Notes under the pieces: model-generated
What the model was told of the DNA's origin: nothing
The model's database searches: none
Seen by the model: the letters and a program-made list of their open reading frames with translations, nothing else
Shown: positions 12,260 to 39,095 of the stretch, one piece after another
Layout of the letters: every line of letters begins with the position of its first letter
Numbering within the stretch: position 1 is the stretch's first letter
Source: Diphasiastrum complanatum
Taxonomy: Eukaryota > Streptophyta > Lycopodiopsida > Lycopodiales > Lycopodiaceae
NCBI GenBank assembly: GCA_029204225.1
Contig: CM055109.1
Coordinates: 481,688 to 545,687, forward strand
Length of the DNA stretch: 64,000 bases
Direction: 5' to 3'
Made by a program: the position numbers and the translations under genes

Positions 12260-12913
12260 TGTGAGAGATTTCAACTAGTTTAGTCTAGTTTAGTCACATT
12301 TTGGTAAATTGTTAATAAGAGGCCAAAACTCATTTTAGACTTAGAGATAAACTTTTTGAAGTTATATTAGTTTAAACTACATTCAATAAACACTTTTGGA
12401 AAGTGTGGGAAAGTTGGTAGTCGAGTTTGAGAGAGATTCAAATTTGAACTTTGGGTACATTGAATCTAGACCCAAAAATAGTAGGGTTTACATTTTGGAG
12501 GGAAAGCCAAGTGGCCAAATAGGGTTTGGAAACTCTATAAAAGGATGTAACTATTGGAGAGACACATCTTCTCTCTTCTCTCTCTCATTTCATCATTATA
12601 CATGGTTCTCTTTGGGTTCTACTACTCATTGGTGCACTATCTTGGTGTTATCTTGCAATCTTGTGTGTAGAATGATCATTTATTGCTATTTTCGGTTCCA
12701 CACGTGTGAAATACAGTAGGGTATTGTAATTGTACGAACAGCAAACATATTTTATGTTTTGGTTCATGTTTGATCAATATCTCTTAGAGTTTGCATCTCA
12801 TTTTGTATGTAGATGCTGATTTTTCTACATTGGCAGGATTGTTGGTTTGCTCCTTATTGTAACCAAAGATTTGGGACTTGGATTGGATCTTGAATGATCT
12901 GAAATCCTTCACA
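12260..12913 (+). repeat. 5' LTR of the young Copia element
   Basis: TG...CA bounded. A TATA box (CTATAAAAGG) lies near 12535, and a CACACGTGTG palindrome (G-box type) near 12690. The 107-codon frame inside it is repeated unchanged in the 3' LTR and is not a gene. Confidence 0.95.
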
Positions 12914-12925
12914 TGGTATCAAAGC
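12914..12925 (+). promoter_or_regulatory. tRNA primer-binding site
   Basis: TGGTATCAAAGC directly after the LTR. It matches the initiator Met-tRNA 3' end used by plant Copia elements, with one difference from the common form TGGTATCAGAGC. Confidence 0.85.
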
Positions 12926-13514
12926 TATTGTGTCTCAGGTTATGAAAGGATCAGCCATCTTTAGCAAGAAGTTTGAGGAGTTACCAATGCTAGAGCATGC
13001 TAGATTGATCTCTACTCAAAAATCAGCATTTTTGCATGTGTAGAATTGATCTTTTGTAGGTCAAAACTCAATATAGGGTTATATACTTGATCAATTCCGA
13101 TTTAACACTTGGCTTACTGGAATTAGATGATTTTTGGTGCATTAGGAAGGTCTCATTGGAGTCTACAAGAAGATATACCAAGTTTCTAGAAATTGCATGT
13201 AGAATTTGAGATATTCAATTTTTTGTGATTTTGTCAAAACCCTAATTTTGATTGGATCTCTAGTTTGTGAGGTTACTGAACTTTATTTGAGTGTGTTTCA
13301 ATCTTAGGAAGTGGCAAGAATCATTAGATTGAGGATAGATCATAGGTTGATCAAGATTTCACTATTCTATGTGTTGATTTTCTAGTTAGAAGTGCTAGAA
13401 GAGATTTGAGAGGTTCCATATCTTTGTGATTTCTTCTTGAGTTCATTTTTTGACATTCAAGAGAGTGCTTTGTGCATTGGAACAGGTTGAAAGAGAAGAT
13501 CAGGTCACTTCAAC

Positions 13515-16500
13515 ATGGCTACAAGTGGTGGATTTATGTTGGAGAGCAATGATAGGCTTACCTCAATCAACTATTCTACTTGGAAGGTGAGGATGGAGTC
13601 CTTATTGGAGATGAATGAGTTGATGGAGATTGTTGCAGGTGTGGAGGAGAGACCTCAAGCACCTCAAGATCAAGTGAGGTATGACAAGAGAGCAAAGAAA
13701 GCTCTACACATGATTAAGATGAATGTTACCAATGAACTTCTCAAGGAAGTTGGTAAGTGCACATCATCTTTGGAGGCTTGGGAAATTTTGAAAAAGCTTT
13801 ATGAATCCAAGTCTACATCAAGAGTGCTTACTCTTAGGAGGCAAATCTTTCAAAGTTTGCAAAAGAGGGAAGAGAGTACTCATGCTTTTGTTTTGAGGGT
13901 TAAGGCATTCAATGATGAGTTAGCATGTATTGATGAAAGCATTAAGGAGGTAGAGCTTGTTCAAGTTATACTTAATGGCTTGTTGGATGATCATGCTAAT
14001 CTTGTTCAAAGTTTTGCTATTCAAAAGACTTTGCCAAGTATTGTGGATTTGCAAGAGATCTTGGTGAATGAGGAGTATAGGCTTCAATCAAGAGGAGGTG
14101 GATCTACATCGACATCTCATTATGAAGAGGATGCTATGTTCATCAAAGGCAAGTTCAAGGGCAAAGGCAAAGGCAAGTGGTCTAAAGGGCAAGATCAAGG
14201 TGAGACTTCTTCTTTTGGAAAAAAGAAAGATAAGTCTAAGTTGAAATGCTTTTATTGTGGAATCAAAGGGCATTTTGCAAATGAATGTTTGAAGAAGCAA
14301 AGAGATGAAGGTAGCAAGCAAATCAACTTTACTACTAATGATGAGGGTCTAGGTGGTGGTGATTCTCTTTTGATGTGTTCATCAAGTCCAATATCAAGTG
14401 AAGGTGACAAAGATTCATGGTGGATTGATAGTGGAGCTAGCTCACACATGACTAGTCACAAGGAGTTCTTTACTTCTTTGGTCACTTATGATGGAGCCAA
14501 GAAAGCAATTCACATGGCCAATGGTGGTGAGTGTGTGATTGAAGGTATTGGTTCAATTCCTATTTGTCTCTCTACTAATAGGAAAGCAAGACTTGATGGT
14601 GTTCTTTACATTCCTTCACTTTCAAAGAATTTGCTAAGTGTTGGTCAAATGATAAAGAAAGGATACATGGTAAAGTTTGGTGGTGATGCTTGTTTCATTA
14701 CAAAGGAAGAAATCTTGGTTGCTAGGGGCAATAGACAAGGTAGACTTTTAAAGCTTGATGCTTTTGTTATGGCTAACAAAAAGGATGGAATGGAAAAGGA
14801 GATTGGTCTCAACTTTCCAAAGTTATCTTTTAGCATCAATAAGATTGTTGGATCTTATGCAAAGTCTAACAAGCTTCCTTATGCTAGATCTAGGTCAAGA
14901 TCTAATATGCTTCTTGGAGATGTTCATCTTTGTGCTAACTTGGCTAGTCTTGAGGATAATGATGGTGTTTCAATGGTTCTTCATGGCAAGTGCAAGCATG
15001 CAAAAGATAAGGAAAGAGCTAACTTCATCAATGGAGGTGAAGGTTCTTCCTTGGAAAAGATTGTTGTTAATGATTTCTTTGATCATATGTCAAAAGATGT
15101 TGCTAGGTGCATTCATGAAGGAGGTGGTTCTTCTACATTTTTTAGTGATGAGTCCAAGAAAGTCATTTTTGCAGCAAGTGGAGTCACATTTCCTCATAAA
15201 GAGAGTAGATCAAATGGTTCTATCAAGAGACTTGGTGAGGGAGATAGTCACAAGTCAAGAAGAAGAGAAGTATGTGAAGAGTTCAAAGTAGGATGTACTT
15301 TGAATGATGTCATTTTGAATGATAGTGAGGAGGAATCATTATCATGTGAGTCATTACCTAAAACATTGAGTAGAAGTTCTTGTTTGAAAAAAGAGAGTAC
15401 TTCAATCATTCTTATGTTGAATGTACTAATCATTTTTTTCATGGCTTCTAATGTTTTTGAGGTTTCTACTTCTTATGATGCAATCATTAAGAGGGAGTCT
15501 TATGAAGGAAAGAGCAATGAAAGATTGGTTCTTGGGAAGATCCAAGGCATGGATCTCACATCTCTTCATCAACTCAAAGGATTCTATGATTATGAATTGA
15601 TCACTCATGATCAAGATGGCAAAAAGTTGGTTGGAGAAGACTACATGGAACAAATCGAGAGGCAATTTCTTCAAGGCAAGGGAGATCTCATTGGTGAGCT
15701 TATTGAGGTTTGTTATGGACTCAAGAGGGCTGGATTTATTAGGTTTGATACTCATCTTCACCTACTCTACTTCATGTTGGATGGAAAATTTGGAATCTAT
15801 CTTTTGGATTATGATGGTGACATTGATGACATTGTTTTCACTAACCTTTGTGGGAGATCGAGATCAAGCATTGATGAGATCTTGTTGAATCTAGATCATA
15901 TGTTTGAGAGGGAGTATTTCCAGAGGTTCAGGTCTGAAGATATTCATATCTTTGATATCTTTGATGATCAAGAGAAAGGTAAGCACATGGAAGCGACTCA
16001 CTTTGCTTTATTCACATGTTTTGAAGAATTTTCTTGTGTAGATGAAGCTATGCAAGTGGATATTGGTTCTCATGTTTTTCATACTAGAAAATCAAGTAAT
16101 GGATCTGGAAAAAAAAGTTTGTTTAATGACTTTGATGATCAAGAGGAAGATCAAGAGGTTGGTCTTAAAGGGCTTCAACAACACAAAAGGAAAGGTGGCA
16201 ATTTGGAGCTAGTCAAGAGTATCAAAGGAAGGTTATTTGGCAAAGATGTTATGGATCTATTTTTGCAGCTTATTGAAGACTCAAGTAAGGTCAAAGGAGC
16301 AGCAAGGAAGTGTTGTTCAAGTTTACTTTACTTGTTCTATCTCATGTTTGAGCTATTTCATGTGGATGTGTGCAAATTGTCAAGATATGGACAAACTAGC
16401 TACATTGTCTTGCAATATCTTATTGTTGGAGTTGTACTAGCATTCTTGGCTGGTTTTGCTGATGGAAATGAAGTTATTGGAGGTTCATTATGTCACTCAT

Positions 16501-17102
16501 CCATGGCTAAGTTCTCAAGTGTTGAGCTACTTGGTGCCAATACTTGGGGATTGTCAATTTTTGGTGAATTCATGGTCATTTTCTTGTGTCAAGTAGATCT
16601 TGAAGATGGACTAGTGCAAATTACTTGGTTTATGGAGTCATGTGGTGCTAGATTTGCATCATGTATATACTCACCTACTCATGGATTTCCAAGGTTTGAT
16701 GGTGTCTTGTGGCAAGATGGAGATGGAGGCACATTCATGGAGTTTTATGGTGAAGACATATCAAGAAAGGACAAAGTTGGAGGAGACAAGCAAGCAAATG
16801 GTCATCACTCACATTTATTGTTTGGTTGCTGTAATTTTCCAGAGAGTTCAAAGTTTGAAACATGGAGGAATCATTTCATTTACATTCTATTTGGTTCTTC
16901 ATGTTCTAGTTATATCTTGATGTGTAAAATTGATGTAAGAAATAGTGAAGCATCCAATTTGGACACTATTCTCTATATCAATTATGAAAGATACTTTAGA
17001 ACCTTAGAAAGAAGATCTATACTTAGGATGGAGATCATTCTAAAGTTGGATCAAAGTTCTATTGTCAAAACTATGCCAAAACTAGTTGAAGAGGGAGTGT
17101 GA
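13515..17102 (+). CDS. Gag-protease polyprotein with unrecognised ~780-residue C-terminal part
   Basis: The single open frame is 1195 codons. Residues 1-200 are a Copia gag (UBN2 type: YSTWKVRMESLL, EAWEILKKLYES). Residues 245-258 are a CCHC knuckle (CFYCGIKGHFANEC). Around residue 302 is the aspartic protease active site (WWIDSGASSHMT), followed by YIPSLSKNLLSVGQM. The usual pre-integrase, integrase, RT and RNase H signatures do not follow. Short echoes remain: VCYGLKRAGF near residue 731 resembles the RT motif LYGLKQAP, DYDGDIDDIVF near residue 765 sits where YVDD should be, and VLQYLIVGVV...LAGFADGN near 975 recalls the RT/RNase H boundary. Two hydrophobic stretches (near residues 634 and 965) could span a membrane. 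The stop codon lies inside the first bases of the 3' LTR. Catalytic residues of RT and integrase appear lost while the frame is kept open, which suggests selection on the protein or very recent origin. Confidence 0.85.
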   Translation: MATSGGFMLESNDRLTSINYSTWKVRMESLLEMNELMEIVAGVEERPQAPQDQVRYDKRAKKALHMIKMNVTNELLKEVGKCTSSLEAWEILKKLYESKSTSRVLTLRRQIFQSLQKREESTHAFVLRVKAFNDELACIDESIKEVELVQVILNGLLDDHANLVQSFAIQKTLPSIVDLQEILVNEEYRLQSRGGGSTSTSHYEEDAMFIKGKFKGKGKGKWSKGQDQGETSSFGKKKDKSKLKCFYCGIKGHFANECLKKQRDEGSKQINFTTNDEGLGGGDSLLMCSSSPISSEGDKDSWWIDSGASSHMTSHKEFFTSLVTYDGAKKAIHMANGGECVIEGIGSIPICLSTNRKARLDGVLYIPSLSKNLLSVGQMIKKGYMVKFGGDACFITKEEILVARGNRQGRLLKLDAFVMANKKDGMEKEIGLNFPKLSFSINKIVGSYAKSNKLPYARSRSRSNMLLGDVHLCANLASLEDNDGVSMVLHGKCKHAKDKERANFINGGEGSSLEKIVVNDFFDHMSKDVARCIHEGGGSSTFFSDESKKVIFAASGVTFPHKESRSNGSIKRLGEGDSHKSRRREVCEEFKVGCTLNDVILNDSEEESLSCESLPKTLSRSSCLKKESTSIILMLNVLIIFFMASNVFEVSTSYDAIIKRESYEGKSNERLVLGKIQGMDLTSLHQLKGFYDYELITHDQDGKKLVGEDYMEQIERQFLQGKGDLIGELIEVCYGLKRAGFIRFDTHLHLLYFMLDGKFGIYLLDYDGDIDDIVFTNLCGRSRSSIDEILLNLDHMFEREYFQRFRSEDIHIFDIFDDQEKGKHMEATHFALFTCFEEFSCVDEAMQVDIGSHVFHTRKSSNGSGKKSLFNDFDDQEEDQEVGLKGLQQHKRKGGNLELVKSIKGRLFGKDVMDLFLQLIEDSSKVKGAARKCCSSLLYLFYLMFELFHVDVCKLSRYGQTSYIVLQYLIVGVVLAFLAGFADGNEVIGGSLCHSSMAKFSSVELLGANTWGLSIFGEFMVIFLCQVDLEDGLVQITWFMESCGARFASCIYSPTHGFPRFDGVLWQDGDGGTFMEFYGEDISRKDKVGGDKQANGHHSHLLFGCCNFPESSKFETWRNHFIYILFGSSCSSYILMCKIDVRNSEASNLDTILYINYERYFRTLERRSILRMEIILKLDQSSIVKTMPKLVEEGV

Positions 17103-17751
17103 GAGATTTCAACTAGTTTAGTCTAGTTTAGTCACATTTTGGTAAATTGTTAATAAGAGGCCAAAACTCATTTTAGACTTAGAGATAAACTTTTTGAAGT
17201 TATATTAGTTTAAACTACATTCAATAAACACTTTTGGAAAGTGTGGGAAAGTTGGTAGTCGAGTTTGAGAGAGATTCAAATTTGAACTTTGGGTACATTG
17301 AATCTAGACCCAAAAATAGTAGGGTTTACATTTTGGAGGGAAAGCCAAGTGGCCAAATAGGGTTTGGAAACTCTATAAAAGGATGTAACTATTGGAGAGA
17401 CACATCTTCTCTCTTCTCTCTCTCATTTCATCATTATACATGGTTCTCTTTGGGTTCTACTACTCATTGGTGCACTATCTTGGTGTTATCTTGCAATCTT
17501 GTGTGTAGAATGATCATTTATTGCTATTTTCGGTTCCACACGTGTGAAATACAGTAGGGTATTGTAATTGTACGAACAGCAAACATATTTTATGTTTTGG
17601 TTCATGTTTGATCAATATCTCTTAGAGTTTGCATCTCATTTTGTATGTAGATGCTGATTTTTCTACATTGGCAGGATTGTTGGTTTGCTCCTTATTGTAA
17701 CCAAAGATTTGGGACTTGGATTGGATCTTGAATGATCTGAAATCCTTCACA
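17098..17751 (+). repeat. 3' LTR of the young Copia element
   Basis: Same length as the 5' LTR, with no difference seen by eye. It is preceded by the purine tract and overlaps the last five bases of the polyprotein frame. Confidence 0.95.
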
Positions 17752-17842
17752 GCTTACAAGTCGTTCGATCCCATCAAGTCGAAGATATTCACTAGTCGGG
17801 ATGTCATCTTCATCAAAGATCTTCCATTAGGGGATATTAGAA
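17752..17842 (+). pseudogene. Copia integrase-RT linker fragment (left part of an interrupted Copia)
   Basis: Encodes YKSFDPIKSKIFTSRDVIF then LPLGDI, the usual post-integrase segment of Copia pol. It stops where the 10.4-kb DNA transposon begins. The continuation of the same pol region is at 28,260-28,960. Confidence 0.75.
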
Positions 17843-17859
17843 CTCAAAATGGGCCCTTT
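17843..17859 (+). repeat. Left terminal inverted repeat of the H3-Ulp1 transposon
   Basis: CTCAAAATGGGCCCTTT, the exact complement of 28243-28259. The preceding bases are ATATTAGAA. Confidence 0.75.
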
Positions 17860-18272
17860 GTCAAGATATTGTTTTTGACTTTGCACGCTTTCAACACTTA
17901 TGTGTCCCAATGAATGGTGTCCATTTGTGACGAACTATAACAATGGTTGACGGACGAAAATTGTATTTAACTTTCCTGGCCAAATTTTCATGATTTTCAA
18001 ATATCCTGCCGGGCAGAACAAACAATTGTGATTGGACCACAGTTACTGTTCGAATACTCTTATGTTGCCCGTCATTGTTCACTCGAGGTTGATTTGACTT
18101 CAGTAGTCATAAACTGTGGTTAACTAATCCTTGTAGTTAAGGAACTTCTTGTCATTCATAGGTATACCTCTCATTTTCTTCATTCTATCTCTCATTTTCT
18201 TGTCATTCTTAGGTTTACCTCACAATCTCTACATTCTCTCTGATCTCAGCTTGTGTACTCGTATTTTCAACT

Positions 18273-19440
18273 AATGGCTACACATAATCGGAGACCAAGA
18301 GGAACCATTGATGCAATCAATATTTGCAATGAAAAAAATGCAAAAGATCAATGGATACCATTAATATATCGAAAATATCAATGGATCTTGATGCATCCCT
18401 CTGCAAAAGGCTCATTCCGAAAAAGAAAAAGATCGGATAACATATATAGAAGCTCTTGGAAAGGCAGGATAATGGATTTTAAAGTATCACATGCCGGTCA
18501 ATCTATCACGGAAGTTTTAGTTCAGCATGTTTATCTTCACAATGAGCTCAACATTCATGATCTGAATCCAAATGATAGAAGGAAATACAATTGTAAGTTT
18601 TCATATTCAATTTTTTTAGATTTAGCATTTTCTTTAAATTATATTTTTCTTGAGATGTTTTTGTTGGTTTTGCAGACTTGTATCCATCAAATTTTTTTGA
18701 ATGGCAATCAGTTCAATCGATTGTAGGAATAATCGTATCATACATTCAGATATCGGTATTTTACAATATAAAGGTCATTCTCCAAAATCACTTTTAGAGT
18801 CAGGAGTTTTTTTTATGATCACACCTATTTTCCTGATAAAAATGGTTTAGTTGGTAAATTAGAGCCATATCCTCTACCAGATTTTTCGAGTGAGGAATGG
18901 ATTTTTCTTGATGCAGCAATTTCAAAAAGTTTTCAATCTAGGCTATATATTGATATTCAGAGTATATTAAAATGTAGCACTGGATCAAAGAATAATAGAT
19001 TAAGTTGGTATCTACCTTTTACTATTTTGTTGATTTTTTTTTCAAATGCAATGTTCGAAGAACGAAAACAATGTTTATTTGTAAGGACTTGAGTGCTAAT
19101 ATAACCGCCGAGTTGTTAGATGATGGTTGGGATACAAAACAAAATTAGTAAGTTGAGTGCAGAGTATGTTACTCATCCATGACATTTGGATATCACATCG
19201 AAAAACAATGCTCACTTTGCTGCTGTATTATAGAAGATGGATTAAATGCAAAAATGTTTGAAAGCCACTTGATCAAGATTTTGGTATAAACCCTCAAGAG
19301 CAACTTCAGATAACATTGAAAAGAAATGACAACATTCTTGCAATGGTTGAGGTCGAGGAAGATTGGTGTCTCAATCACATTTGATCAGAACTAGACATGT
19401 TGCAATTCGATTTACCTCAGTACTATCAATTTTGATTGAA
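18273..19440 (+). pseudogene. Gene A of the H3-Ulp1 transposon, unrecognised
   Basis: Begins MATHNRRPRGTID and is very basic around residues 45-60 (KGSFRKRKRSDN). Exon 1 ends at a donor near 18592 (AATT|GTAAGT). An acceptor near 18675 (TTTGCAG) leads to LYPSNFFEWQSVQ. After frame changes the sequence continues with HSPKSLLESGVF, FPDKNGLVGKLEPYPLPDFS, EEWIFLDAAISKSF and KNNRLSWYLPF, then a Cys-rich part (CRVCYSSMTFGYHIEKQCSLC, about 19150-19225) that may bind zinc. Its end converges on the Ulp1 gene. No known family is recognised. The basic segment and possible zinc knuckle would fit a DNA-binding protein, but that is inference. Several frameshifts and stops make it a pseudogene. Confidence 0.5.
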
Positions 19441-19714
19441 TGGTGTAAAGGTACGTTATGCCATATAAAAACAATTTTTTTTTTTCTATTTCTAAGTGAA
19501 TCAGTTTCATAAAATATATAACTAAAACAATTTCTCTTGTGCAGGTAAGAGTAAGGCAGAAAGAGCATATAAAATACAAAGACATTAGAATATCCATCGG
19601 AATTGAAGATCCATAGATTATGAACTATGGAATTTTGTATTATGTAATACATTTTTTTGTATACATCATTTTTGAAAATATATAAACCATTTTTTCTATG
19701 AGGCCCTTTCATTT

Positions 19715-19858
19715 CTATGATCTCCATTTCCATGGTGCAAAACACAATGTAATTGCAACTGGATAATATGAGTTTTCTATAGCAAGATTCATTGTCTCCT
19801 GCAGGAAATGCACTATCTCCATTGGGGAGATCTTCAGTCGCTTGAACTCCAATGATCA
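19715..19858 (-). pseudogene. Second, internally deleted copy of the Ulp1-gene 3' end
   Basis: The minus strand encodes ISPMEIVHFLQETMNLAIEN, clearly homologous to the last exon of the H3-Ulp1 gene at 20294-20452 (VSSMEIMHFRQETIKLVIEN). Immediately upstream, 19847-19858 equals the first 12 bases of that gene's second exon (TGATCATTGGAG). In this copy exon 2 is therefore joined directly to the final exon, with the sequence between deleted. It indicates a duplication within the transposon or a nested second element. Confidence 0.65.
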
Positions 19859-20293
19859 CTACAGTTGATGCTTGCCCTTGTTGAAGTCTCGTATATATCG
19901 ATGTATTTTTGGTCTTCATTGCCTTGGTCTGTATTGTTCTTGTCTTGGCATATTTGCATATGTTCAGATGATGATCTGATTAAAGCTTTGCTTCAACAAA
20001 TCTAAGTGAACTAATGTCGCATGTTTGGATTGGTTGTGGCAAAGGTTCGATCATATCATCATTCTGAACTTATCCAAAAAAGACCATGGTAAAGGCAAGG
20101 CAAACCAAGGCAACAAAAAAAAAAAACATGTCAAAAAACAGTAGAAATTAAAGATGAATGAATCATAACCTGAATTGATAAGAGGAAAAATAACAAGTAA
20201 GAACAACCATAGAAAAACTGTAAGTATATTTCTATTAAAAAAATTTGTACATGTGTCTCATCCACATCAAGTGAGACGAATATAATCTCTAAA

Positions 20294-22314
20294 TCAACTA
20301 TCTATAATCTCTAAATCCATTTCTCCAGTTGGAAGTAGCTTGGGTGGAGAACACTCGGCCACTACAACTAGATATGAATTTTCAATCACAAGCTTTATGG
20401 TCTCCTGTCTGAAGTGCATTATCTCCATTGAGGAGACCTTCGGACATTTAAACTAAAAAAAAACATACACAGTTGAATGTAATTAATCAAAAATCAGTTA
20501 ATAGGAGTTTGTATATGAAAAGTAATTAATCAAATATTACCTCTTCCAGATTTGGAAGTCCATCTTGTAACGCAAGCCAATAACCACAGTTGACAAAATC
20601 AACTTGCTGGGAGGACTGCAGAATCCAAATTTGAACATTATGAGATATCGGATCAACGCGCAGGATGTAAGAATAAAATCTACAACCGGAAACAAGCGCG
20701 CGTCAAACCGATATCAAAAGAATTCGATTGAATATCGGATCAGCGCGCACATTGGAAAAATAAACCAATCAATAACTACAAGGGCGCGTCGAACTGATAT
20801 CGAAAATTTTATACCTCTGCATCAACCATTTAAAACTTCGAGTATGCTTTTGCATTTAGTACTAGAAAGAGTTTCAGTATTTTATATATATGGGTCCTGG
20901 CAATTTTGTGTGTGTGTGTAATAGAGTTCATCCTCAAACAAACTGGATTACACACACCCTCATCATTGACGTACAGAGACAACACATATAAGCTCCAATG
21001 ATCACTGAAATCAAAAAACAAGAAATTTATGAGAATCAATGTGAAATCAAAATTCATATGAAAAATTCAATAAAATAAAATCTGAAAAATAGATACTTAC
21101 TTTGTTCTGTATGGTAGCATGAGAATTTAATTCCTCAATCTAACGTATTGGAGCATATCGTCGTGCAAAATTTTGAAATCAGGGAAATCAAATGCTGCCA
21201 TGAATTGAAAGGGAAACAATGCAACATCTATAAACAATGGGGTCTGGAAGAACTCCATCTAGTACTGAATTGCCCCACCTCCTACATTGTCCCCAAGCAT
21301 TTTATCCCTACTTTCTAATTCACCAGTATCTAAACTAGAAAGGGGGAGACCAACATTGGTCTTCGGCATCCTAAAACTGTATCGAGGACCTAAATCTTTA
21401 AGATATGTGTTTAACAATTGATCATACTGTACATATTGAGAACTATTTACAAAGGCAAATGCAGGGGGTGACGGAAGTAGCACTGATAAACCACCTAAAG
21501 AATTGTCATTCAAGATTGATTCTACCTTTACACTGATAAAATCATCTAAATCGCTTCCAACAACAGGAGGAGGTGAACTAATATTTACGGGTTTAGGAGG
21601 AGGAGGAGATTTAGGAGGTGGAAATTGGTTAGGAGAGGAAGATTTAGCAGGAGAAGTTAAAAATGGAGTGGAAGGAGAAGAAGGAGACTTAGGAGGAGAA
21701 TGCCTAGAAGAAAGAATAATATTCAGAGGAGATGGCTTGGAAAAATCCCTCGTTTTAGATGGAGGGTCGAGAGACCTGTTCTTCTTTGAAACACTCCCAC
21801 TCTGTATACGAATAACAAGTCGTGTTGGTTGAGATTGCTTTCGTTTTCTCCTCTCTGAATCTTGTTTTGGAGGAGAGGAGGGAGCAGGTCTAAAGTATTC
21901 AGCAAACTTGTCATATGTGTCCCAAAGCCTGAACACAATGTTGAAATCCTTGGGCGTGATGGTCACCCTCTTGGCATGGACAGCTGCAACAATAGTATCA
22001 GAAAAAAATTTCATCTGGAAATCCTCATATGCTATGTGTAGTGCCTCAATTGCCATTACCGTCCATCTCACATCTGCAGATAGACTTCTTGTCACTTGCC
22101 TGATGGACCTCTGTATGTGAGATTTCAGAATCAGAAGATTGTTTGTCTTATGAAGCTTCCGAATATCCTTGAGCTAGGGTGGGTCTCTTCTTCTGCCCCT
22201 TGGCCTAGGAGGAGGTGGTGGTGGATGAGGTGGTGGTTGTGGATTTCCCTGACCCGCACCTGAAATTGGTATTCCACCTGAATGCCCTCGTGTTATCTGC
22301 TTGGTCCGCGCCAT
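20294..22314 (-). pseudogene. Histone H3-like / Ulp1 (C48) protease fusion gene
   Basis: Four exons in one frame: 22314-21101, 21004-20815, 20615-20541 and 20452-20294, all with GT-AG borders, about 545 codons. Residues 1-18 are an H3-like tail (MARTKQITRGHSGG) keeping R2, T3, K4, R8, G12 and G13 but with G for K9, H for S10 and I for K14. A proline/arginine segment follows. Residues 48 to about 135 match the H3 fold without gaps (LKDIRKLHKTNNLLI, VMAIEALHIAYEDF, VHAKRVTITPKDFNI). Then comes a linker of about 110 residues rich in Pro and Ser, then an Ulp1-type protease: DHWSLYVL (His), LRMNSI (Asn where Asp is expected), QQVDFVNCGYW (Gln and Cys). Four in-frame stops (codon 47 at 22176, plus 21261, 21129, 20832) are the only breaks, each explicable by one C-to-T or G-to-A change. 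Ulp1 enzymes remove SUMO from proteins. Fusion of this fold to a histone is not something I know from other genes. Confidence 0.85.
20644..20802. promoter_or_regulatory. Motif cluster 1 (four sites, F-R-F-R) in intron 2 of the H3-Ulp1 gene
   Basis: Sites at 20644-20661 (F), 20696-20715 (R), 20731-20750 (F) and 20783-20802 (R). F consensus is GATATCGRWTCARCGCGC and R is its complement. F and R starts are 52 bp apart in both pairs. The cluster lies wholly within the intron between 20814 and 20616. Confidence 0.8.
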
Positions 22315-22323
22315 TACTGTGTA

Positions 22324-22488
22324 GTAGCGGATCAGCGCGCGATAATGTTGATTTCAGGATCAAACCTCAAGTCGGACGCGTCGAAGTGATACCTGAGCTA
22401 AATAATTATGTTAATTGGTAGCGGATGGGCGCGAGCGAGTAGGAACGAATTGAAGGAAGTTGTTTTCGAACGCGCTGAATCGATATCG
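22324..22488. promoter_or_regulatory. Motif cluster 2 (F-R-F-R) directly upstream of the H3-Ulp1 start codon
   Basis: Sites at 22324-22340, 22375-22392, 22418-22434 and 22468-22488, alternating F and R with 51- and 50-bp spacing. The first site ends 9 bp from the ATG at 22314, so binding there would block or control transcription start or the 5' leader. Confidence 0.8.
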
Positions 22489-22841
22489 CATGGATACAAA
22501 TAACTATAAGCAAAAAAATTTCAGCGTCGTCGATCAGTATATATAGAGAAAATCAGAAATGATTGCAAACGTGGTGATTTGCAAACGTGGTGGTTCGTAT
22601 TACGATGATGATTATTTAGAGGGTTGTCAATCAAATCAATCTAAATATCCATCAGTCATCAAAATGATTAGTCCATATCGAATTAACTAGAACTAATTTC
22701 AAATAAAGTATGGTCACATCTACAATTAATCACACTTCTACCATTAATGCTGAAACTGACAACGTTAAGCTTTAAATATAAGACTTTTTTTATATCTGAT
22801 AATTATAATTTTGAAAAATTCCAAAGGCCAGATTTTCACCT

Positions 22842-23122
22842 GATAGCTAGTCAACGCGCATATAAAGCATTTGACAATCATAGTATGTATTTTCGCGCGC
22901 TCATCTAATATTGGACGCAATATGAATGATCAGAACTTGATTCGATAGATTCTGCATAACTTTGGCCAGTATGAAGAGTCTTCTGAATCAAGCTTTGATC
23001 ATGCATATAGGGTCCAATAGTTTCAAAAATTTCAAAAATATTTTGGTCCTGGAATAGCGATTCGACGCGCGCAGTCCAAATGCAGCAAATACATCGTCTA
23101 TCAGGCGTGTTGATCTGATATC
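22842..23122. promoter_or_regulatory. Motif cluster 3 (two F-R pairs) in the divergent intergenic region
   Basis: Pairs at 22842-22860 with 22895-22913, and 23054-23071 with 23104-23122. The sites are more diverged than in clusters 2 and 4, but orientation and 50-53 bp spacing are kept. Confidence 0.65.
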
Positions 23123-23597
23123 CCATATTTAGAAAAATCATACTGGAACGCATAATGAAAGACTTATGAAAATGTTCTGAATGAACATTATCTCAAAAGA
23201 AAAATTTTCATCTTTACGGTGTTTAAATAGGGCGAGAGATTGTAATAATTCTCCTCGTTCACATTTTTCAATGATATCCATTAATCAATTGTTTATAATT
23301 TTTTTAATGATTATTCTAGGAGGCTAGTAATTGTCTATTTAATGTATTCCGATGCAGGGCTAATGATGATTCGTTGAATCTAATACTAGACTAGTTAATG
23401 TATTTCGACGTAGATACAAATTAGTCTCATTCTGATTGGTGGATAGATACAGGTTGTAAATCACTATTCATTATTTGACAAATGTATGGTTGTGATCAAC
23501 AAGAATTGGCTATAAATATGTGCACCACTTTCCATATTTCGATTCCGTAATCTTTTATTCTGAACTCTCTAGTCTTCTTGTTTTTCTTCATTCTCCC

Positions 23598-23789
23598 GAT
23601 ATCGAATCGACACGCGCCATCCCTTGTTGTGCATGCTCGTATTCGTTCAGGCGTGCTGAATCGATATCAGCCACTTCCGACCAGTGCTTTTCGAAAAATT
23701 TCATTCTCGGCCTTACCATATCGGATCAGTGTGCGCACTTTGCTTTATTCCTCTACCGATATTTATCTGACGCGTTTAACCGATATCGG
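23598..23789. promoter_or_regulatory. Motif cluster 4 (F-R-F-R) directly upstream of gene B
   Basis: Sites at 23598-23617, 23650-23668, 23717-23736 and 23769-23789, with 52-bp spacing in both pairs. The last site ends 7 bp before the ATG at 23797. This mirrors cluster 2, so in each gene the site nearest the ATG has the same orientation relative to the gene. Confidence 0.8.
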
Positions 23790-23796
23790 ATTCAAT

Positions 23797-25230
23797 ATGG
23801 CTAGTTCTTCCATGGTCTCTAGTATTTTTTCTGCTCCCTTCGATATCGATAGCTAGTTTATGAGAATCGTTATAATTTAATTTCTTATCTTGATAATTTT
23901 TCTCAGATTATTAGTACTCCTGTTATGGATATAGATAATTTTTGTTTTGTTCATTATCAGGACCTTGTACATTCCCAACCATCCTCTAAGCATAAACACA
24001 ATCGAAAGTACTCTAACCTACATGACCGTTTCAAAAGAAATATATACTGTGATATCCACAAAAGAATATGTCGCCTTCTAATCAAAGGAATGGCTTTTGT
24101 GTTCTACATATCTACTAAAATTTTCAGATGATGAGTCTGTTGAATCTTCAACTATTTCATTGATCGAAGCATCTACACCTGCTCCAGTTGATGTAAATGA
24201 TGCAGATACTGATATAGGGGTTGAAGTTGAAGTTTCTATGGCTTCAGATTATCAAAAAACTCTCCCTCGTTCTATAATCCTCTCTGATTCTCTTCCATCT
24301 GCATCTTCTATTAATCTATCAACTCTACTTGATGTTCCCTTATATTTTATAAATAATGAACATTATATTTCATTTAATGATATAGAAGATGTATTGAATC
24401 TGAGAGAGGACGAAATCCTCTCAATTTTTGCTCAAAATTTATCAGAATTTTCTGACATTGTTGATTACTCATATGATGACCTTGAAAGTGAGATAGATTA
24501 TGATAAAAATGGCAATTGGAAATCTGGCCTTGGAGGCCATGATTGAAAAAACTAAAGCCTATGAAAAGACTTTGCTTATAGAGGAGGAATTTTTGGAATT
24601 TCAAAAAAAATATCCCCCTAGGGCTAGATATATCCCCTCCGGAAATGTAGAGGCCATTGGAGAACATGACATCAGCAGAACAAATGTCATTGATTACGAT
24701 GATTATGATCTAGTAAGTAGATATTATATTGGTATTGATATTGTCCAGTTTTCTTATTTCTTATTCGAATTGATATTGTTTAGTTTTCTTATTGAGTTTG
24801 CAGTGTTATGTATCGTTCTAAATTTATTTTCTTTTCTCGTTTACAGGATGCTATTGAAATAGATGCCTTTGGTATGAGACATAGAGGCGTCCGAGGTGTA
24901 TTAGCTGAGAGAAAAGATGTTTCTCTATCTCATTATTTGAAAAACTTTCAAAATCATGAGATTTGTATATATCATTCATCTTATAATCCATATGCAACCA
25001 CTGTCATTATGGCCATCAAATCATTATTAGTTTGTTTAGGAGGCCATAACTACGCAAGAGAAACATATAAAATAATTTTTGTGAAGAGAGATTTGGTTAT
25101 TAAGATATTGGGTTATACTCCCAATGAGCAAGAGAAAAAATTTAGAATTTTTGGATCCATATGAAAGGAGATTATTCCTTCATGACAATACCATCCGTCT
25201 AAATCTTGAAGAGGATGATGATGATACTTA
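23797..25230 (+). pseudogene. Gene B of the H3-Ulp1 transposon, unrecognised acidic protein
   Basis: Starts MASSSMVSSIFSAPFDIDS just after motif cluster 4. After a frame change it gives LISYLDNFSQIISTPVMDID and HDRFKRNIYCDIHKRICRLL, then an acidic region (SDDESVESST, about 24125 on) with DIEDVLNLREDEILSIFAQ. Next come ALEAMIEKTKAYEKTLLIEE and an intron at 24713-24846 (GTAAGT...TTACAG). The last exon has AFGMRHRGVRGVLAERKDVS, ICIYHSSYNPYATTVIMAI and KRDLVIKILGYTPNEQEKK. A late frameshift hides an acidic end (NLEEDDDDT) with a stop at 25228-25230. I recognise no family. Its position opposite the H3-Ulp1 gene, sharing the motif-rich divergent promoter, suggests co-regulation. At least three frame breaks make it non-functional. 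Confidence 0.5.
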
Positions 25231-25299
25231 AATAACTTTCTGTAATAGATTTTTGATATATTACAAGGATCTCTCTTTTGTAATGAATTTGAATGCCTT

Positions 25300-27853
25300 T
25301 CAAAATATCGTAATACTTGGCGAGGTTTTAGCTTGATATCTAAATTGTGCTCTTCTGTAAAACCACTGAAAAAGTTGAACTAAATATTTATTTCTTGAAT
25401 TGTGTCCTCCATGATTTGTTGCTCTATGAAATGCTCCCCTTGCTTGCCAATGAGATTTTTCCATGCCTTGTGATGACCAGATACTTAAGCTCCCATATTC
25501 TTTTGCAAAATAAGTTGCATGATGAAGAAGGATGTGCTGCAAACAATAGTTTTGATTAGTTACATCAGTAGAAAAAAATATAAGCCTGAATGAGAAAAGT
25601 ACCACATAATGATATAGATTAGCACCATGTAATGAGTAACGTTGTCTTTTCCCCAATAATCATGTACAGATTTTACAAATGTGGTGCAATGATTTTGCAA
25701 AGTCCTCATATCTTCTAATGATAGGTTTTCTTTCCTGATAATACCTATGAGTTTGTCTAAGTTGGTCCACACTTGTCCCTTTTCCACTCGATTACTTCCT
25801 TCCAATGTTCGTGTGGCTTGAACAATTTCTCTCCAAATTTCGTATCTGACACTTGATTCTTTGCATGTGTGATTGGATAAAAATCTTCTTGCTTTAGCAC
25901 CTCCAATTGATGGCTTATTAGGAACGTTTCTTTTTTTCCCTGAGAGTCTGTCACTTTCTTCAATTGTGACATTCCCTTTATGTAGTCCTGCATTTGACAG
26001 AACTATTTTCAACCTCCTAATTGCTGCTTTAGCCACTGACTCTAGTTTATGATTCCATGCTAGTAGAATATGCAGGGAAATTAGTTTTTCAATAATACGA
26101 ACCTCAGCATGCAATGTGCATATGTGAACATATTTTAATGGAATTGGCAGAACACTTTTCATATTTGGATCTTCAGCTTCTCGTGTTGGGCCAGTGTTTG
26201 TTGATCGTCCCAAATTCATATTGTAACAATCCTTCATGCAATAAAGACATGGATGCTTTGATGTTGCCCCATGAGAGACATTATACATACATTTTAATGT
26301 TTTCAGATCCCCTGCAAGGTGCCATTGAATTTGAAAACTTCTATGGCACCTTGCAGGGGATCTGAAAACATGGATGCTTTGATGTTGCCCCATGAGAGAC
26401 ATTATACATACATTTTAATGTTTTCAGATCCCCTGGCAATGTATGAATTGTTACTATAGATATTCTAAATGAAGATTGAAATGTATATCTGGAATGTCGC
26501 CAACACCATATGTGATTTTCCGATTGAACACTAAACGTCAGATCATCTGTATCTAAAATTTTGTTCATCAAAGTGACACTCACACATTTCAACTTCTAAC
26601 ACTTGATGATTTCAGATTCATCCAATCTTATTACAATAATAATCTTTCCATTTACTTGATGTTCATCTAGTTTATAGAATCGAATAATGTATTTTAGAAC
26701 ATTTTCAATATCAAGAAAAATATTATTGCAATCGTTGTAATTGAGCTCACCATATTCTTATTTGTATAATTCAGTTATATAAAGTGGTTGGCCAACTACT
26801 TTGAACATTCCGTCATTATAAAAATTTCTAGCTAATTTTACCCGATATGGATGCGAAAGATTAATTTTCTTCACCATCACTTGGAAAAAAACTTCTTTAA
26901 CTATTCTAAAAAAAGTAGAATAAGCATTTCTGCTAATTTCAGATACATCACATGCACCTTGTATCACATTCGTATCCAAGTATGATTGAACCTGAATCAA
27001 ATAGTCTCTACAATTTCATTTTTCATTTTTTCAAACTGAGCATTTTTTATCATTTGCTTTGTTGATCCAATGCATGAACGATCTGTTAAATAGTTCTTTG
27101 CCACCAAACATGATCTGCAACAAACATATGAAACTCAAATTATGTTTAATAAATAAAAAATCCATGTTATCAAGCGCAAATCAAACTTAAATGACATATA
27201 CAAATCAAATAAACAGATTAGATGACAACATACTTGAATGCTCGGATTTTTTTTTTCTGATTGCCGCTATGTGTAGATAGGTCATCAATATTCCTCATCG
27301 GTACTCTCTTTCTTTTTCTCTTCATCATTGCCTTATTGATAACTTTTAGATCAACAGTAGATTTTAAACTCTTGGATCGCAACTTTTCCATGGATTCTAA
27401 CATTTCTTGGTTTGATCCTCGAAGAGTAGTGACAGTAGCATTCAACTCTGACATAGCATTCTTGAGTGCATTGTTTTCAGCACTAGTGTGTTGCACATAA
27501 TGAAGCAATTGTTGATTTGCAAGTTGCAATTGTTGATTAGCAAACTATAATTGTTGATTCAGACAAGATATGCTATGCATTCCAATATCTCGCAACCTTT
27601 GACAATATCCAAGTAATCCGCTATTTCCTTCACATACATATCTGAGAAGATGAGTTACGGACTTAAAATCTGGACACAAATTGGTAGCTGGATCATTAGG
27701 ATAAATTGATCCATCCACCCACAAATCTATATTCATATGATTATTCATCAATTCTCTAACTATTGTTGCAGCATTCTCTACAACTTTCGCATTTTTCTTA
27801 AGAATTGGAGTGCATTCCATCGGAAGATCAACATGCAAATGGAACATTGCCAT
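25300..27853 (-). pseudogene. Transposase-like gene of the H3-Ulp1 transposon (family not assigned)
   Basis: Exon 1 (27853-27234) begins MAMFHLHVDLPMEC and has a Gln/Asn heptad coiled coil (NQQLQLANQQLLHYV), broken once by TAG where the repeat predicts CAG. Exon 2 starts at 27114 (CLVAKNYLTDRSCIG). The core reads KIIIVIRLDESEI, LPGDLKTLKCMYNVSHGATS with KHPCLYCMKDC, then PIPLKYVHICTLHAEVRIIE. The last exon (25536-25300) reads HHATYFAKEYGSLSIWSSQG, MEKSHWQARGAF and QWFYRRAQFRYQ. The RLDES and PGDLK motifs, followed by C-x2-C, look like the first two Asp of a DDE-type nuclease with a zinc knuckle. I recall similar unnamed proteins in other eukaryotes but cannot name the family. A frameshift near 27003, several stops and a local duplication disable it. 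It is the best candidate for the element's transposase. Confidence 0.6.
26248..26435. repeat. 67-bp direct duplication joined by a perfect 26-bp inverted repeat
   Basis: 26248-26314 and 26369-26435 are the same 67 bp. Between them the end of the first copy is followed by its own complement: arms 26300-26325 and 26343-26368 (26 bp, perfect) around a 17-bp spacer. It lies in the transposase-like gene, right after the PGDLK motif, and disrupts it. The structure looks like a template-switch (snap-back) replication error. Confidence 0.9.
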
Positions 27854-28242
27854 TGTTAAAGCTACAATCATGTAAATGAATATACCTACAGTAAATCAAT
27901 ATGAATAGATCTAGCATTCCTTACTTTTGTAGTTTTATGTCGCATTGAAAAATCGTCCCGCCTCATATTTCACTATAAGCATATAGTGATTTCAAAAGTT
28001 TTGTCTCTCCTGCTTCAGTTTTTGCATTGAGCACACCAAGATATTTAGTCTTAAAGCTCTAGTCCCGAATTTGGGAACGAGCATGAAGAGAAGTTATTAC
28101 ATCTCATGCTAAACTAACTATTGTCTGAAGTTAACCATACTAGTTAAACGTCGGGCAAGGTCAAAAACTCAAAAAACGGCGACCAGAAGTTACCGGTTTG
28201 CATTCTCTCTCTACGTAACCTCTCTCTAAAGTGAAATTTCTT

Positions 28243-28259
28243 AAAGGGCCCATTTTGAG
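28243..28259 (-). repeat. Right terminal inverted repeat of the H3-Ulp1 transposon
   Basis: Complement of the left 17-mer. It is followed by CCCATATT and then Copia coding sequence. Confidence 0.75.
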
Positions 28260-28960
28260 CCCATATTTCTCCTAATGAAAGGAAAAGGCAAAGCCCATGT
28301 AGCTGACTTGTCTGACTCGTCCGACATATTGAACTTCGAGGTTTCGCAGTTGACTATTCCCATTGAAGGTCCAAGCTCATCGACTTTCGACGAACAACAT
28401 ATCAACGACAAATCCGAAGATGATGATGTTGCAATGCAGCAACTACAGTATGATGAATTTCATCAATTTCCTCTATTCCCCAGAAGATCATCAAGAACTA
28501 GCAGACCACCTATCAGGTATATCAATGAGTTTGCAGCCTACCTTATTCAGGAGCAACCAACTGTCGAAGAGGCACTTAGTCAACCCGATTCCGATCTCTG
28601 GAAAGAAGCTATGGATAAAGAGTATTCATCTCTTATCAAGAACCAGACATGGACGATTGTTGTATTACCTACTAATAGAAACGTAGTTGATTGCAAATGG
28701 ATTTTCAAAGTCAAGTACAAAGCAGACGGAAGCATTGATAGAAGAAAAGTCCGACTTGTCGCCAGAGGATTTTCTGTATACAACGTCGATTATATTGAGA
28801 CCTTCAGTCCAGTAGTCAAACTTTCTTCTATTTGACTTTCATTATCATTTACTGTTGCAGCAGATTTGGAAATACATCAAATGGATGTACATACAACATA
28901 TCTCAATGGAGTTATCGAAGAAGACATTTACAGTAAGAGCATGTAGAGCATATGTGTACT
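28260..28960 (+). pseudogene. Copia pol fragment (linker and first RT motifs)
   Basis: Encodes the linker (GKGKAHVADLSDSSDI, FPRRSSRTSRPPIRYINEF), then the RT start (DLWKEAMDKEYSSLIKNQTW, VVDCKWIFKVKYKADGS, VRLVARGFS, YIETFSPVVKLSS). After a stop near 28835 it gives DLEIHQMDVHTTYLNGVIEE. It is cut off before YVDD. It is the right-hand continuation of the Copia interrupted by the transposon at 17.84-28.26 kb. Confidence 0.85.
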
Positions 28961-30975: not shown

Positions 30976-31290
30976 CCCATTGTACACTTTCATCCAACGG
31001 GGTTGGCTCAATTGGTTAGCTTGACATCCAAAGTTTCTTTGGTCTCAAGTTCGAGCCTCCCCTTGGAAACCAAAAAGCATTTTACACTTTCAACCAACGG
31101 GGTTGGCTCAGTTGGTTAGCTTGACATCCAAAGTTTCTTTGGTCTCAGGTTCGAGCCTCCCCTTGGAAACCAAAAAGCATTTTACACTTTCAGTCAAGGG
31201 TGTTGGCTCAATTGGTCATCTTGACATCCAAAGTTTCTTTGGTCTAAAGTTTGAGCCTCCCCTTGGAAATCAAGAAGCATTTTACACTTT
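30976..31290 (+). repeat. Tandem array of three 100-bp tRNA-like (SINE) units, plus strand
   Basis: Units start at about 30999, 31099 and 31199, exactly 100 bp apart. Each has a pol III A box (TGGCTCAGTTGG or one base different), a stem CCAAAGTTTCTTTGG, and a B box (GGTTCGAGCC or close) with GGGG/CCCC closing ends, followed by a tail ending CATTTTACACTTTCA. This is a tRNA-derived SINE head. It is unusual to find it tandemly repeated. Confidence 0.75.
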
Positions 31291-31964
31291 CAAACGCCTC
31301 CTCCATTGAAGTCTTTGAATTTCACCTCTCTTGTTGATAATTGATAAATTATAATAACTCTTTCTGTTATTCGTCCATCGGAGGTGAATTATCAATAGCA
31401 AACTTAGCTTGGGATCGACTTATTTCTCATCATGACCTAAGGTGCAGGAAGGGCCTAACCATTGTCCAAGCGGTGTAGGGTGTAGGAAATATCATGAAAG
31501 TGAATCTCTTAGGACCTCTTCACACACATATCTCGTCCCCAAGATTGTCATGGAATTCAAGACAATTCTCTTCTCTGTCTAGCCCACCCATTTTATAATT
31601 CCTCTTTACATGTTGAAATCTTGTTGACTCGTGATAATAATCCATTTATGCCATTGATGAATGATGTTTTTCTTGAATCTCTTCAAGTTGAGATCATTAG
31701 TTTTGTTTGCAGCTGATCATCCGATTGATTTGTAGGTGATCATCAGGTGTCTTGCAGTTGGCAGCTAACCCATGGAAGCCAAACGGGTTGGCTGGGAAGC
31801 CCGACTTGGCACCGAGTGAGGCAACAAGTTTTAGCCATGAGAATATGCCAGCCCCACCAGGAACCAGCTCTTGACATCGAGATTGGGCCGGATGAGGGCT
31901 CATGTGAAGAGGCCCTTTATCATGTCAGTTTGTGATCTTCCTACACCGTTGGATGAATGTAGGG
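31291..31964. other. Spacer between the two SINE arrays, no gene
   Basis: Unique-looking sequence. Near 31950 CCGTTGGATGAA mirrors the CATCCAACGG that opens the left array, so the spacer is flanked by inverted copies of the repeat edge. Confidence 0.4.
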
Positions 31965-32630
31965 CCATTTCGAAATGATCGACCCTGGCGACAAAATGCT
32001 TCTTGGTTTCCAAGGGAGGCTTGAACTTGGGACCAAAGAAACTTTGGATGCCAAGTTAACCAACTTAGGCCAACCCCTTTGGCTGACTTCCCAAAATGCT
32101 TCTTGGTTTCCAAGGGGAGGTTCGAACTTGAGACCAAAGAAACTTTGGATGTCAAAATAACCAATTGAGCCAGCACCCTTGATTGACTTCCCAAAATGCT
32201 TCTTGGTTTCCAAGGGGAGGCTCGAACTTGGGACCAAAGAAACTTTGGATGCCAAGCCAACCAACTGAGCCAACCCCGTTGGGTGAATGACTTCCCAAAA
32301 TGCTTCTTGGTTTCCAAGGGGAGGCTCGAACCTGGGACCAAAGAAACTTTGGATGCCAAGCTAACCAGTTGAGCCAACCCCGTTGGGTGACTTCCCAAAC
32401 CCCGTTGGGTGACTTCCCAAAATGCTTCTTGGTTTTCAAGGGGAGGTTCGAACCTGGGACCAAAGAAACTTTGGATGCCAAGCTAACCAGTTGAGCCAAC
32501 CCCGTTGGGTGACTTCCCAAAATGCTTCTTGGTTTTCAAGGGAGGCTCGAACTTGGGACCAAAGAAACTTTGGATGCCAAGTTAACCAACTAGGCCAACC
32601 CCTTTGGGCTACTTCCCAAAATGACAGGAG
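31965..32630 (-). repeat. Tandem array of six tRNA-like (SINE) units, minus strand
   Basis: Six copies of the same tRNA-like unit in opposite orientation, with period about 100-125 bp. The complement of the A box recurs near 32070, 32165, 32270, 32375, 32495 and 32600, and the B box complement (GGCTCGAACC type) precedes each. One junction (32370-32420) repeats GTTGGGTGACTTCCC, suggesting unequal exchange. Confidence 0.75.
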
Positions 32631-37950: not shown

Positions 37951-38207
37951 TCTCATCTCTATAAAGGTAGTCTGAGGGATATCGAACCTGTGTGTGATAG
38001 TGAGATATGAAGGAAAAGGGTGTAACGTGGGTCGTAGAGAAGAGATATGTACGGATGGCATGTTATATCGCTTTTGTGCGCACCTAGTATAACAAAGTAT
38101 GAAAGTAGATGGAAGAGGGTCGCACAAAAGCGACATGCGGAGGTACGGGGTATATCGGAGACAAAGCAAAAAAAATGCATCGGGGGCGAGGACTTTTATC
38201 ACACGGC

Positions 38208-39095
38208 TCACACGTGTAAACGGATAGTAATTTTCTTGATGTTGATACTGAAGTGTTTCGAGAAACTTTCATTGGCTCTAATATTAGTGCTGATGAATCA
38301 ATGTCTGGAGATAAATCTAAATGTTTTCTTAATTTGCATGTGTATCATATAAATGACGATGTATATATTACTACAACTGATTTGTGTACGTTTTTTTGAC
38401 TATCATGAGGATGAGGTGCTTTGTTTATTATCCGGCACAATTTTTGAATTCTTCGACATCGTAGATTTTGATCATGATAGGATCTCACACGTGTGGAGCC
38501 TGGTCCCACGTGTGAAGGGATGTACATAACCTACTTTTATAAAGTTTAGATTGATTTTAGATGGATCTACACAAGTGTGAAATTGACCTTTGAGTAGAAT
38601 CTAGAAAAAAGTCATTTTGGTAAAACTTTTTGTAAATAGATTGCACTTCCCTGTGAATGAGTAAATGCTCCCACATGTCAAGATGTTATTCACATGTGTA
38701 AATAAGATTGTAGATGATAAGATAGAGAGATTCCATTATATTCTATTTTAGGAAATATTCTTATAATTGTGGAAGACTAGCTTTTTTGTTTCTAGCCAAT
38801 GAGAATAGTCAACTTTGGAAAATGAGAATATATGGCTCCCATTGGTGGATCTGAATGACTAGGCACTCTTCACACGTGTGAAGGCTTGTTGGACAGTACT
38901 CAGCTCATGGATGTACTTGATCTACAAGGGGATCAACCAAATCAATGAGAAGTTGATGAGACATTGGCAATTTCTAGCTTTGCTTGTAATTCTCACATTT
39001 GTCTTGAGTTTTTATGATTGGAATGCATTTGTATGTAAAAGTACTTCACTCTCAGTTAACAGTACATACTGGTATTGTCCTCCACACGTGTGAGG
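38208..39095. promoter_or_regulatory. Cluster of eight CACACGTGTG-type palindromes
   Basis: Sites at 38208-38219, 38484-38497, 38505-38517, 38567-38581, 38670-38680 (half), 38689-38701, 38869-38883 (TTCACACGTGTGAAG, perfect) and 39081-39095. All share the G-box core CACGTG or one variant (CAAGTG, CATGTG). No coding sequence is seen between 37.95 and 39.25 kb, so the stretch may be the LTR or promoter of an unidentified element. G-boxes bind bZIP and bHLH factors in plants. Confidence 0.55.

Follow-up and report, generated by a model that had tools for sequence, protein, structure and literature searches.

To our knowledge, few transposon proteins are known to fight silencing, and their action on chromatin is, in our judgement, largely obscure. 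KIU (Kaonashi Ulp1-like) and VANC of Arabidopsis are described, in the available parts of the published accounts, as genes of VANDAL/MULE transposons with a C48/Ulp1 domain (PMC13317346, PMC6117577, PMC10398659). Their proteins reportedly bind motifs within the elements' own non-coding DNA and relieve silencing there (PMC13317346, PMC10398659), and motif-bearing VANDAL/MULE elements are reportedly hypomethylated (PMC13317346, PMC6117577, PMC10398659). In Pseudocercospora and its relatives, a hAT transposon has, according to the part of the paper available, captured histone H3 and amplified it to hundreds of copies (PMC6710886).

The locus analysed here lies in a 64,000-nucleotide stretch of the Diphasiastrum complanatum genome (the window). 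A preliminary description, made from the sequence alone, had proposed that one gene inside a transposon joins an H3-like tail and histone fold to a C48/Ulp1 protease. According to the present analysis, this gene is a broken-down copy, and the accessory gene that it derives from is conserved in a group of DNA transposons present in very large numbers in the genome. The coordinates are collected in Table 1.

Table 1. Positions in the window of the H3-C48 gene, the element carrying it and a related fragment
Feature	Position	Strand	Basis or details
H3-C48 fusion gene, broken copy	20294..22314	-	exons 22314-21101, 21004-20815, 20615-20541, 20452-20294; structure as in L011
H3-like N-terminal tail MARTKQITRG..GG, then Pro/Arg-rich stretch	22177..22314	-	sequence read
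H3 histone fold, gap-free	21925..22173	-	PF00125 6e-17 (ORF residues 1-83) and PDB H3 matches
Pro-rich linker and pre-protease region	21130..21924	-	pooled dN/dS 0.72 (linker), 0.27 (pre-C48)
C48-like catalytic core, exons 1-3	20541..21129	-	His-Trp 21000-20995; exon 2, Asn at Asp position; exon 3, Gln and Cys (20588-20586)
Exon 4, conserved C-terminal block	20294..20452	-	second, diverged copy of part at 19766-19848
Transposable element, about 10.46 kb, within copia pol gene	17821..28281		inverted repeats, copy boundaries, split copia
Gene X, head-to-head partner of the H3-C48 gene, broken here	23797..24546	+	start codon chosen at 23797
Further element gene(s), candidate transposase, broken here	25161..27895	-	no recognised domain
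Six inverted motif pairs (GATATCGGATCAGCGCGC-like arms) between divergent start codons	22323..23787		arm spacing 52-53 bp
Two more motif pairs, intron 2	20644..20801		starts 20644, 20731; spacing 54 and 53
Family-2-like element fragment	37978..38397	+	pair 38064/38120 by scan; weaker pair 37978/38032 by eye

The window gene and the element that carries it

The coordinates, strand, four exons and reading frame first given for the gene were all correct, and the introns are bounded by GT..AG, with phases 2, 0 and 0. The statement that the four exons share one frame stood in part: the frame is kept across all three introns but is not open, being interrupted by TAG at 22176-22174 and 21258-21256 and by TAA at 21129-21127 and 20832-20830. 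That this copy is broken had been overlooked, as had the Asn at the Asp position of the protease and the lack of Lys9 in the H3-like tail. Exon 3 is 75 nt long in the window copy; of 28 loci in which it was measured, 20 have 107-108 nt. As the internal stops were all TAA or TAG, an alternative genetic code reading both as Gln was considered; it was ruled out because other copies also had TGA, as well as various sense codons, at those sites. Rfam and tRNA scans gave no matches. Part of the last exon recurs in diverged form (77%) at 19766-19848, preceded by 12 nt that, by eye, are identical to the first bases of exon 2. This has the look of an internally deleted duplicate downstream of the gene.

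The placement of the gene inside a transposon was borne out by the element termini and by the copia pol gene that the insertion had split. The termini are 39-nt inverted repeats (17821-17859 and 28243-28281) with 82% complementarity. Homology of the copy L021, which has both ends, to the window extended from 17825 to 28277. CATTAG was found at the ends, and the flanks outside were unrelated in L021, L053 and L055, the latter two at their right ends, the left flanks having been missed, probably because of indels. From the range of copy homology, the inverted repeats and the flanks, the element length was estimated at about 10.46 kb. The end of a copia SH3_retrovirus domain lies just to the left (1.7e-4, under the Pfam cut-off) and the start of RVT_2 just to the right (4.9e-12), which indicates that the element splits one copia pol. 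No target-site duplication was seen in either of the two copies with both flanks (window and L021). Queries with the element ends yielded 1479 and 1609 first-look candidates; the 40 scored for each end all matched. One copy on another chromosome-sized contig, L002 (G000:C6:3350201-3360654), has both ends 100% identical to those of the window and a slightly different gene, and is either a recent copy or a segmental duplication.

Gene X had nothing above the Pfam cut-off, and a homologue occupies the same place in the second family described below (36% identity over 69 aa). For the candidate transposase, relatives were absent above the Pfam cut-off and from the PDB and IMG/VR, and IMG/VR scans found no relatives of the element pieces tried. 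Pfam searches of the element's other genes, which are broken in the copies read, found no MULE transposase (best sub-threshold match BLYB, 0.0012); Transposase_21, expected of CACTA (En/Spm) elements, was absent from the pieces scanned, and the ends read CATTAG. In the window copy, the candidate transposase gene contains an inverted and direct duplication at 26244-26435, and in several other copies the parts that correspond to 26346 and 26433 are separated by about 145 bp of different sequence.

Other repeats were observed elsewhere in the window. A very young copia-type element at 12260-17751 has two 654-bp LTRs that are 100% identical and a CpG observed/expected ratio (o/e) of 0.08; its 1203-aa frame matches copia gag, a zinc knuckle and Pol_BBD, and integrase and reverse transcriptase were not found in it by Pfam. 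Tandem repeat arrays of about 100 bp lie in opposite orientations at 30978-31293 and 31992-32623, and a separate CACTA-type transposase fragment lies at 2795-3451 (Transposase_21, 1.9e-12).

Two gene families and their H3 and C48 domains

The 1.74-Gb assembly that contains the window was searched with the H3 exon, and 137 matches were obtained from 130 scored places out of 10332 first-look candidates, a lower bound for the family of the window gene (family 1). Forty-eight family-1 loci were collected: 8 returned directly, a further 20 fetched at a length of 9.9 kb and another 20 at about 2.7 kb. A single one, L011, had a gene of 562 codons with no stop, no frameshift and three GT..AG introns. 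Leaving out the near-identical L001 (the window itself), L004, L007, L008 and L019 gave the set of 43 copies used below.

Querying the genome with canonical H3 revealed numerous H3-like frames with identities of 44-57% (154 matches, with 150 scored of 6060 candidates) and 13 full-length matches with 97-99% identity to a plant H3 sequence, corresponding to near-canonical H3 genes. Repeated H3-like genes may thus be very numerous in this genome. Four H3-like loci were read. Three of them (L049, L051 and L052) constitute a third H3-like group, in which the N-termini are Pro-rich and C48 motifs are absent within 3.2 kb. The fourth, L050, is a second H3-C48 gene, stop-free, with four exons and intron phases identical to those of the window gene. 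Its 491-aa product, checked letter for letter, matched both Histone (1.5e-24) and Peptidase_C48 (7.9e-9) above the cut-offs. The possibility raised at the outset, that profile matches would be lacking or the two domains always be encoded by separate genes elsewhere, is thus contradicted by one stop-free gene. A search for this second family gave 120 matches from 120 scored places out of 9573 candidates, and its sequence evidence comes from a single gene together with the 1.8 kb that precedes it. The places in these counts include some near-identical duplicates that lie on small contigs. With more than 100 places in each of two families and common exon phases, the view that H3 and C48 form one gene was upheld.

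The products of L050 and family 1 aligned colinearly. Their N-terminal parts were 35% identical over 173 positions and their C-terminal parts 28% identical over 241, and the intervening linker gave no alignment. A small H3 tree had low supports and did not resolve whether the H3 domains of both families derive from a single capture. The colinear alignment and the intron phases provide the better argument, and point to one origin of the two families' genes.

The H3 assignment was confirmed. The ORF at 22173-21259 of the window matched the Pfam Histone family at the E-value listed in Table 1, and the fold aligned without gaps over 83 residues to solved H3 chains in the PDB (best E 2.6e-14). Five H3-like proteins were found at E ≤ 0.001 among 2798 candidates when the same ORF was compared with the protein database. 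Identity to plant H3 was 36-40% for four family-1 copies and 56% for L050. The HAKRVTIMPKD block, a part of canonical H3 that is turned towards DNA and the second H3 molecule, was conserved in the 43 family-1 copies at H (42), K (41), R (42), T (42), K (43) and D (43). In the tail, K4 was retained in 40 of the 43, and the K9 position was occupied by Gly in 37; K9 was absent from the L050 tail too.

For the protease part, the window copy alone offered the motifs HWSL and QQVDFVNCG. It had no match in Pfam, and its sole match in the PDB was to an unrelated lipase (E 1.6). Pfam C48 was not found in segments of three family-1 copies, and a two-sequence C48 HMM gave a weak score on the window copy, equalled by 53 of 5000 shuffles (3844 shuffles gave scores). 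The X-joined product found nothing in the protein database at E ≤ 0.1 among 8000 candidates scored, probably because the search was swamped by poly-Pro words, and its C48 region found nothing at E ≤ 10 among 172. When a profile of eight family-1 copies was compared with 177635 PDB sequences, the best match was the C48 protease SENP8 (E 0.068), aligned at the QQ..CG region. The L050 match to Peptidase_C48 (PF02902) reached 36.1 bits against a curated cut-off of 20.7 and spanned positions 82-203 of the 217 in the domain, and its best PDB match was yeast Ulp1 (E 0.0014). The C48 parts of family 1 and L050 were in turn joined by hhalign with a probability of 99.6. The C48/Ulp1 identity therefore holds by way of these relatives, though not from a Pfam match of the window copy itself.

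The catalytic residues were then compared across the 43 family-1 copies. His was present in 36, Gln in 30 and Cys in 35, with the Trp after His in 35, and L050 has His, Gln and Cys. The stop-free L011 keeps the His, with Ser in place of the following Trp. At the catalytic Asp position, Asn was found in 36 of the 43 and in L050, and Asp in one listed copy, L035. This substitution would suit a non-catalytic, C48-like module that binds SUMO or a ubiquitin-like protein and recruits the H3-like part or its partners. Such a pseudo-protease is possible though doubtful, given the retention of the other three residues and the fact that Asn is the third catalytic residue of papain, so that proteolytic activity could persist despite the change.

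Selection on family 1 was estimated from the 43 copies. Pooled pairwise dN/dS (bootstrap intervals in parentheses) was 0.72 (0.49-1.05) for the tail, 0.52 (0.37-0.75) for the H3 fold, 0.72 (0.57-0.92) for the linker, 0.27 (0.16-0.45) for the pre-C48 region and 0.66 (0.57-0.77) for C48. In a rough parsimony count, the values for the tail, H3 fold, linker and pre-C48 region were 0.51, 0.62, 0.94 and 0.30 on internal branches and 1.37, 0.78, 1.09 and 0.54 on terminal branches. The C48 part was no more strongly constrained on internal (0.76) than on terminal branches (0.69). Of 672 internal-branch changes, 29 create stops, which implies that broken copies have also multiplied. Together, these values suggest a weak to moderate constraint that is blurred by dead copies.

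The extent of decay also bears on whether the gene is mere cargo, that is, whether host H3 and C48 genes were captured and are carried along without function. Stops, frameshifts or both were present in 47 of the 48 fetched gene loci, and a decaying TE-captured H3 is known from fungi, in the part of that paper available (PMC6710886). This reading is nevertheless most unlikely: the fusion, exon phases, partner gene and motif geometry are common to two families only 28-35% identical in protein, dN/dS is below 1 in H3 and pre-C48, and no stop interrupts the matched stretch at 26 of the 120 family-2 places (in exon 1) and 18 of the 130 family-1 places, the window's included (304 residues), each stretch being less than the whole gene.

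Paired motifs and a proposed role

Eight pairs of an 18-bp motif were found at 20644-23787, with arms 52-54 bp apart. Six of them separate the H3-C48 start codon (22314) from that of gene X, with left arms beginning at 22323, 22417, 22842, 23053, 23598 and 23717. No further pairs were seen elsewhere in the element at the scan threshold, and five mononucleotide shuffles of the window gave none. Between units, arms were 70% alike and loops 29%, compared with 26.5% for random sequence. Pairs were carried by 19 of the 20 long family-1 loci (the exception being L028), and the spacing was 53 bp in 150 of 197 pair calls from L009-L052, overlapping double calls included. Four pairs, of which the fourth is weak, were found in family 2 (L057 plus L050), with arms 53-56 bp apart and likewise between the start codons of its H3-C48 gene and gene X; none occurred in 100 shuffles. 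Its core reads CACTTG in place of GATCAR, and the outer halves ATATCG and GCGC are common to both families. The gap between the array and the start codon is 9-16 bp on either side in the two families.

The family-2-like fragment in the window includes part of gene X (38220-38396), with 53% identity over 57 aa to the family-2 gene X. The CpG o/e around it is 1.27 (38001-38500), and the adjoining frames at 36591-38062 (-) had no Pfam match above the cut-off.

The inverted pairs could act as hairpins in the 5' leader of each mRNA instead of as DNA sites, as their closeness to both start codons would allow. Complementarity between the arms of a pair (0.667) was, however, no higher than the likeness among all arms (0.698), which gives no sign of compensatory change and argues for protein sites on DNA. 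With other pairs located hundreds of bp upstream and inside an intron, the hairpin explanation is very unlikely.

The array DNA is rich in CpG. In the window, CpG o/e was 0.93 for the array with arms masked versus 0.37 for exon 1; the corresponding means were 0.87 (11 copies) and 0.34 (20 copies). Two other parts of the element averaged 0.48 and 0.37 (8 copies each) and the candidate-transposase part 0.70 (2 copies). The family-2 array gave 1.26 (arms unmasked) versus 0.37 for exon 1. CpG-rich patches also occur elsewhere in the window (0.92 at 33501-34000), and the richness could be a plain property of promoters.

The product of the H3-C48 gene was postulated to be a transposon-encoded regulator that probably opposes silencing. 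With moderate confidence, we propose that it acts against silencing chromatin at the element's own promoter, where an array of paired 18-bp motifs separates the gene from its head-to-head partner. Through its H3-like part it would engage H4, histone chaperones or nucleosomes and would present a tail with Lys4 and without Lys9, and its C48 part would free local silencing factors or transposon proteins of SUMO or of a similar modifier. DNA targeting, engagement of nucleosomes or chaperones, protease activity and anti-silencing are all predictions from sequence; no DNA-binding domain besides the histone fold was recognised. The anti-silencing role suggested in the preliminary description is thus plausible, and the motif array and the richness of the promoter in CpG lend it some support. 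It is weakened by several observations. The arms diverge between copies as much as the loops and flanks (13.4%, 14.4% and 13.2%, respectively), the catalytic Asp is Asn, most copies are broken, C48 lacks an internal-terminal contrast in dN/dS, and the candidate-transposase part is also CpG-rich.

A more specific version of this proposal, which we consider unlikely, is that a Lys9-less H3 substitute would be loaded at the motif-marked bidirectional promoter, bringing a SUMO/ubiquitin-like protease to strip away the machinery of silencing. The promoter nucleosomes would escape H3K9 methylation and the DNA would escape methylation, and the private motif cores would stop the families from waking each other.

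The same motifs would also suit an accessory of transposition. Here a TnpA-like product would bind the motif pairs to assemble the element or activate it, its C48 part would act on the transposase by de-modifying or processing it, and silencing would not be the target. The arrays are in the element's non-coding DNA and in an intron, their near-constant 53-bp spacing would fit a bound multimer, and plant MULEs carry C48 domains, as stated in the available parts of two papers (PMC13317346, PMC6117577). Yet the arrays lie between two start codons, away from the termini, and the near-complete conservation of HAKRVTIMPKD in the 43 copies would exceed the needs of a generic DNA binder. This alternative is regarded as rather unlikely.

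Comparison with known systems

The fusion suggests that the elements may disturb how their own DNA is packaged and silenced. A histone fold coupled to a deSUMOylase-type domain in two large, diverged families, together with matching arrays, would offer a direct handle on whether transposons can edit the nucleosomes of their own promoters. No published H3-Ulp1 fusion was found in a literature search, which reached few subscription papers, and as far as the searches reach, the domain architecture is new for both histones and C48 proteases.

In common with canonical H3 and CENH3, the gene has a gap-free H3 fold and the HAKRVTIMPKD block, with an ARTKQTAR-like tail start in family 1; unlike them, it lacks Lys9 and has a long Pro-rich linker and a protease downstream. 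His, Gln and Cys are kept as in SENP8/NEDP1 and yeast Ulp1 of peptidase family C48, whereas the Asn for the catalytic Asp and the fused H3 fold set it apart from these. The hAT-captured H3 of fungi is likewise an H3-like sequence multiplied by a DNA transposon. In the available part of the account, that H3 is unfused, mostly inactivated (RIP) and associated with a hAT domain and an 8-bp target-site duplication (PMC6710886), whereas here the gene is a fused, multi-exon one in two diverged families, with no hAT match.

The closest parallel is with KIU and VANC, in which, from the parts of the accounts available, a C48/Ulp1 transposon gene likewise occurs with short, family-specific motifs in the non-coding DNA of the element. 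H3 is unmentioned in those parts, whereas here it is fused to the protease. The KIU and VANC carriers are MULEs, whereas no MULE transposase was recognised in the H3-C48 element, the other genes of which are broken. The VANC motifs are described there as tandem repeats, in contrast to the spaced inverted pairs between divergent start codons. The H3-C48 system is best read as resembling VANC/KIU in its logic, with an architecture that is new.
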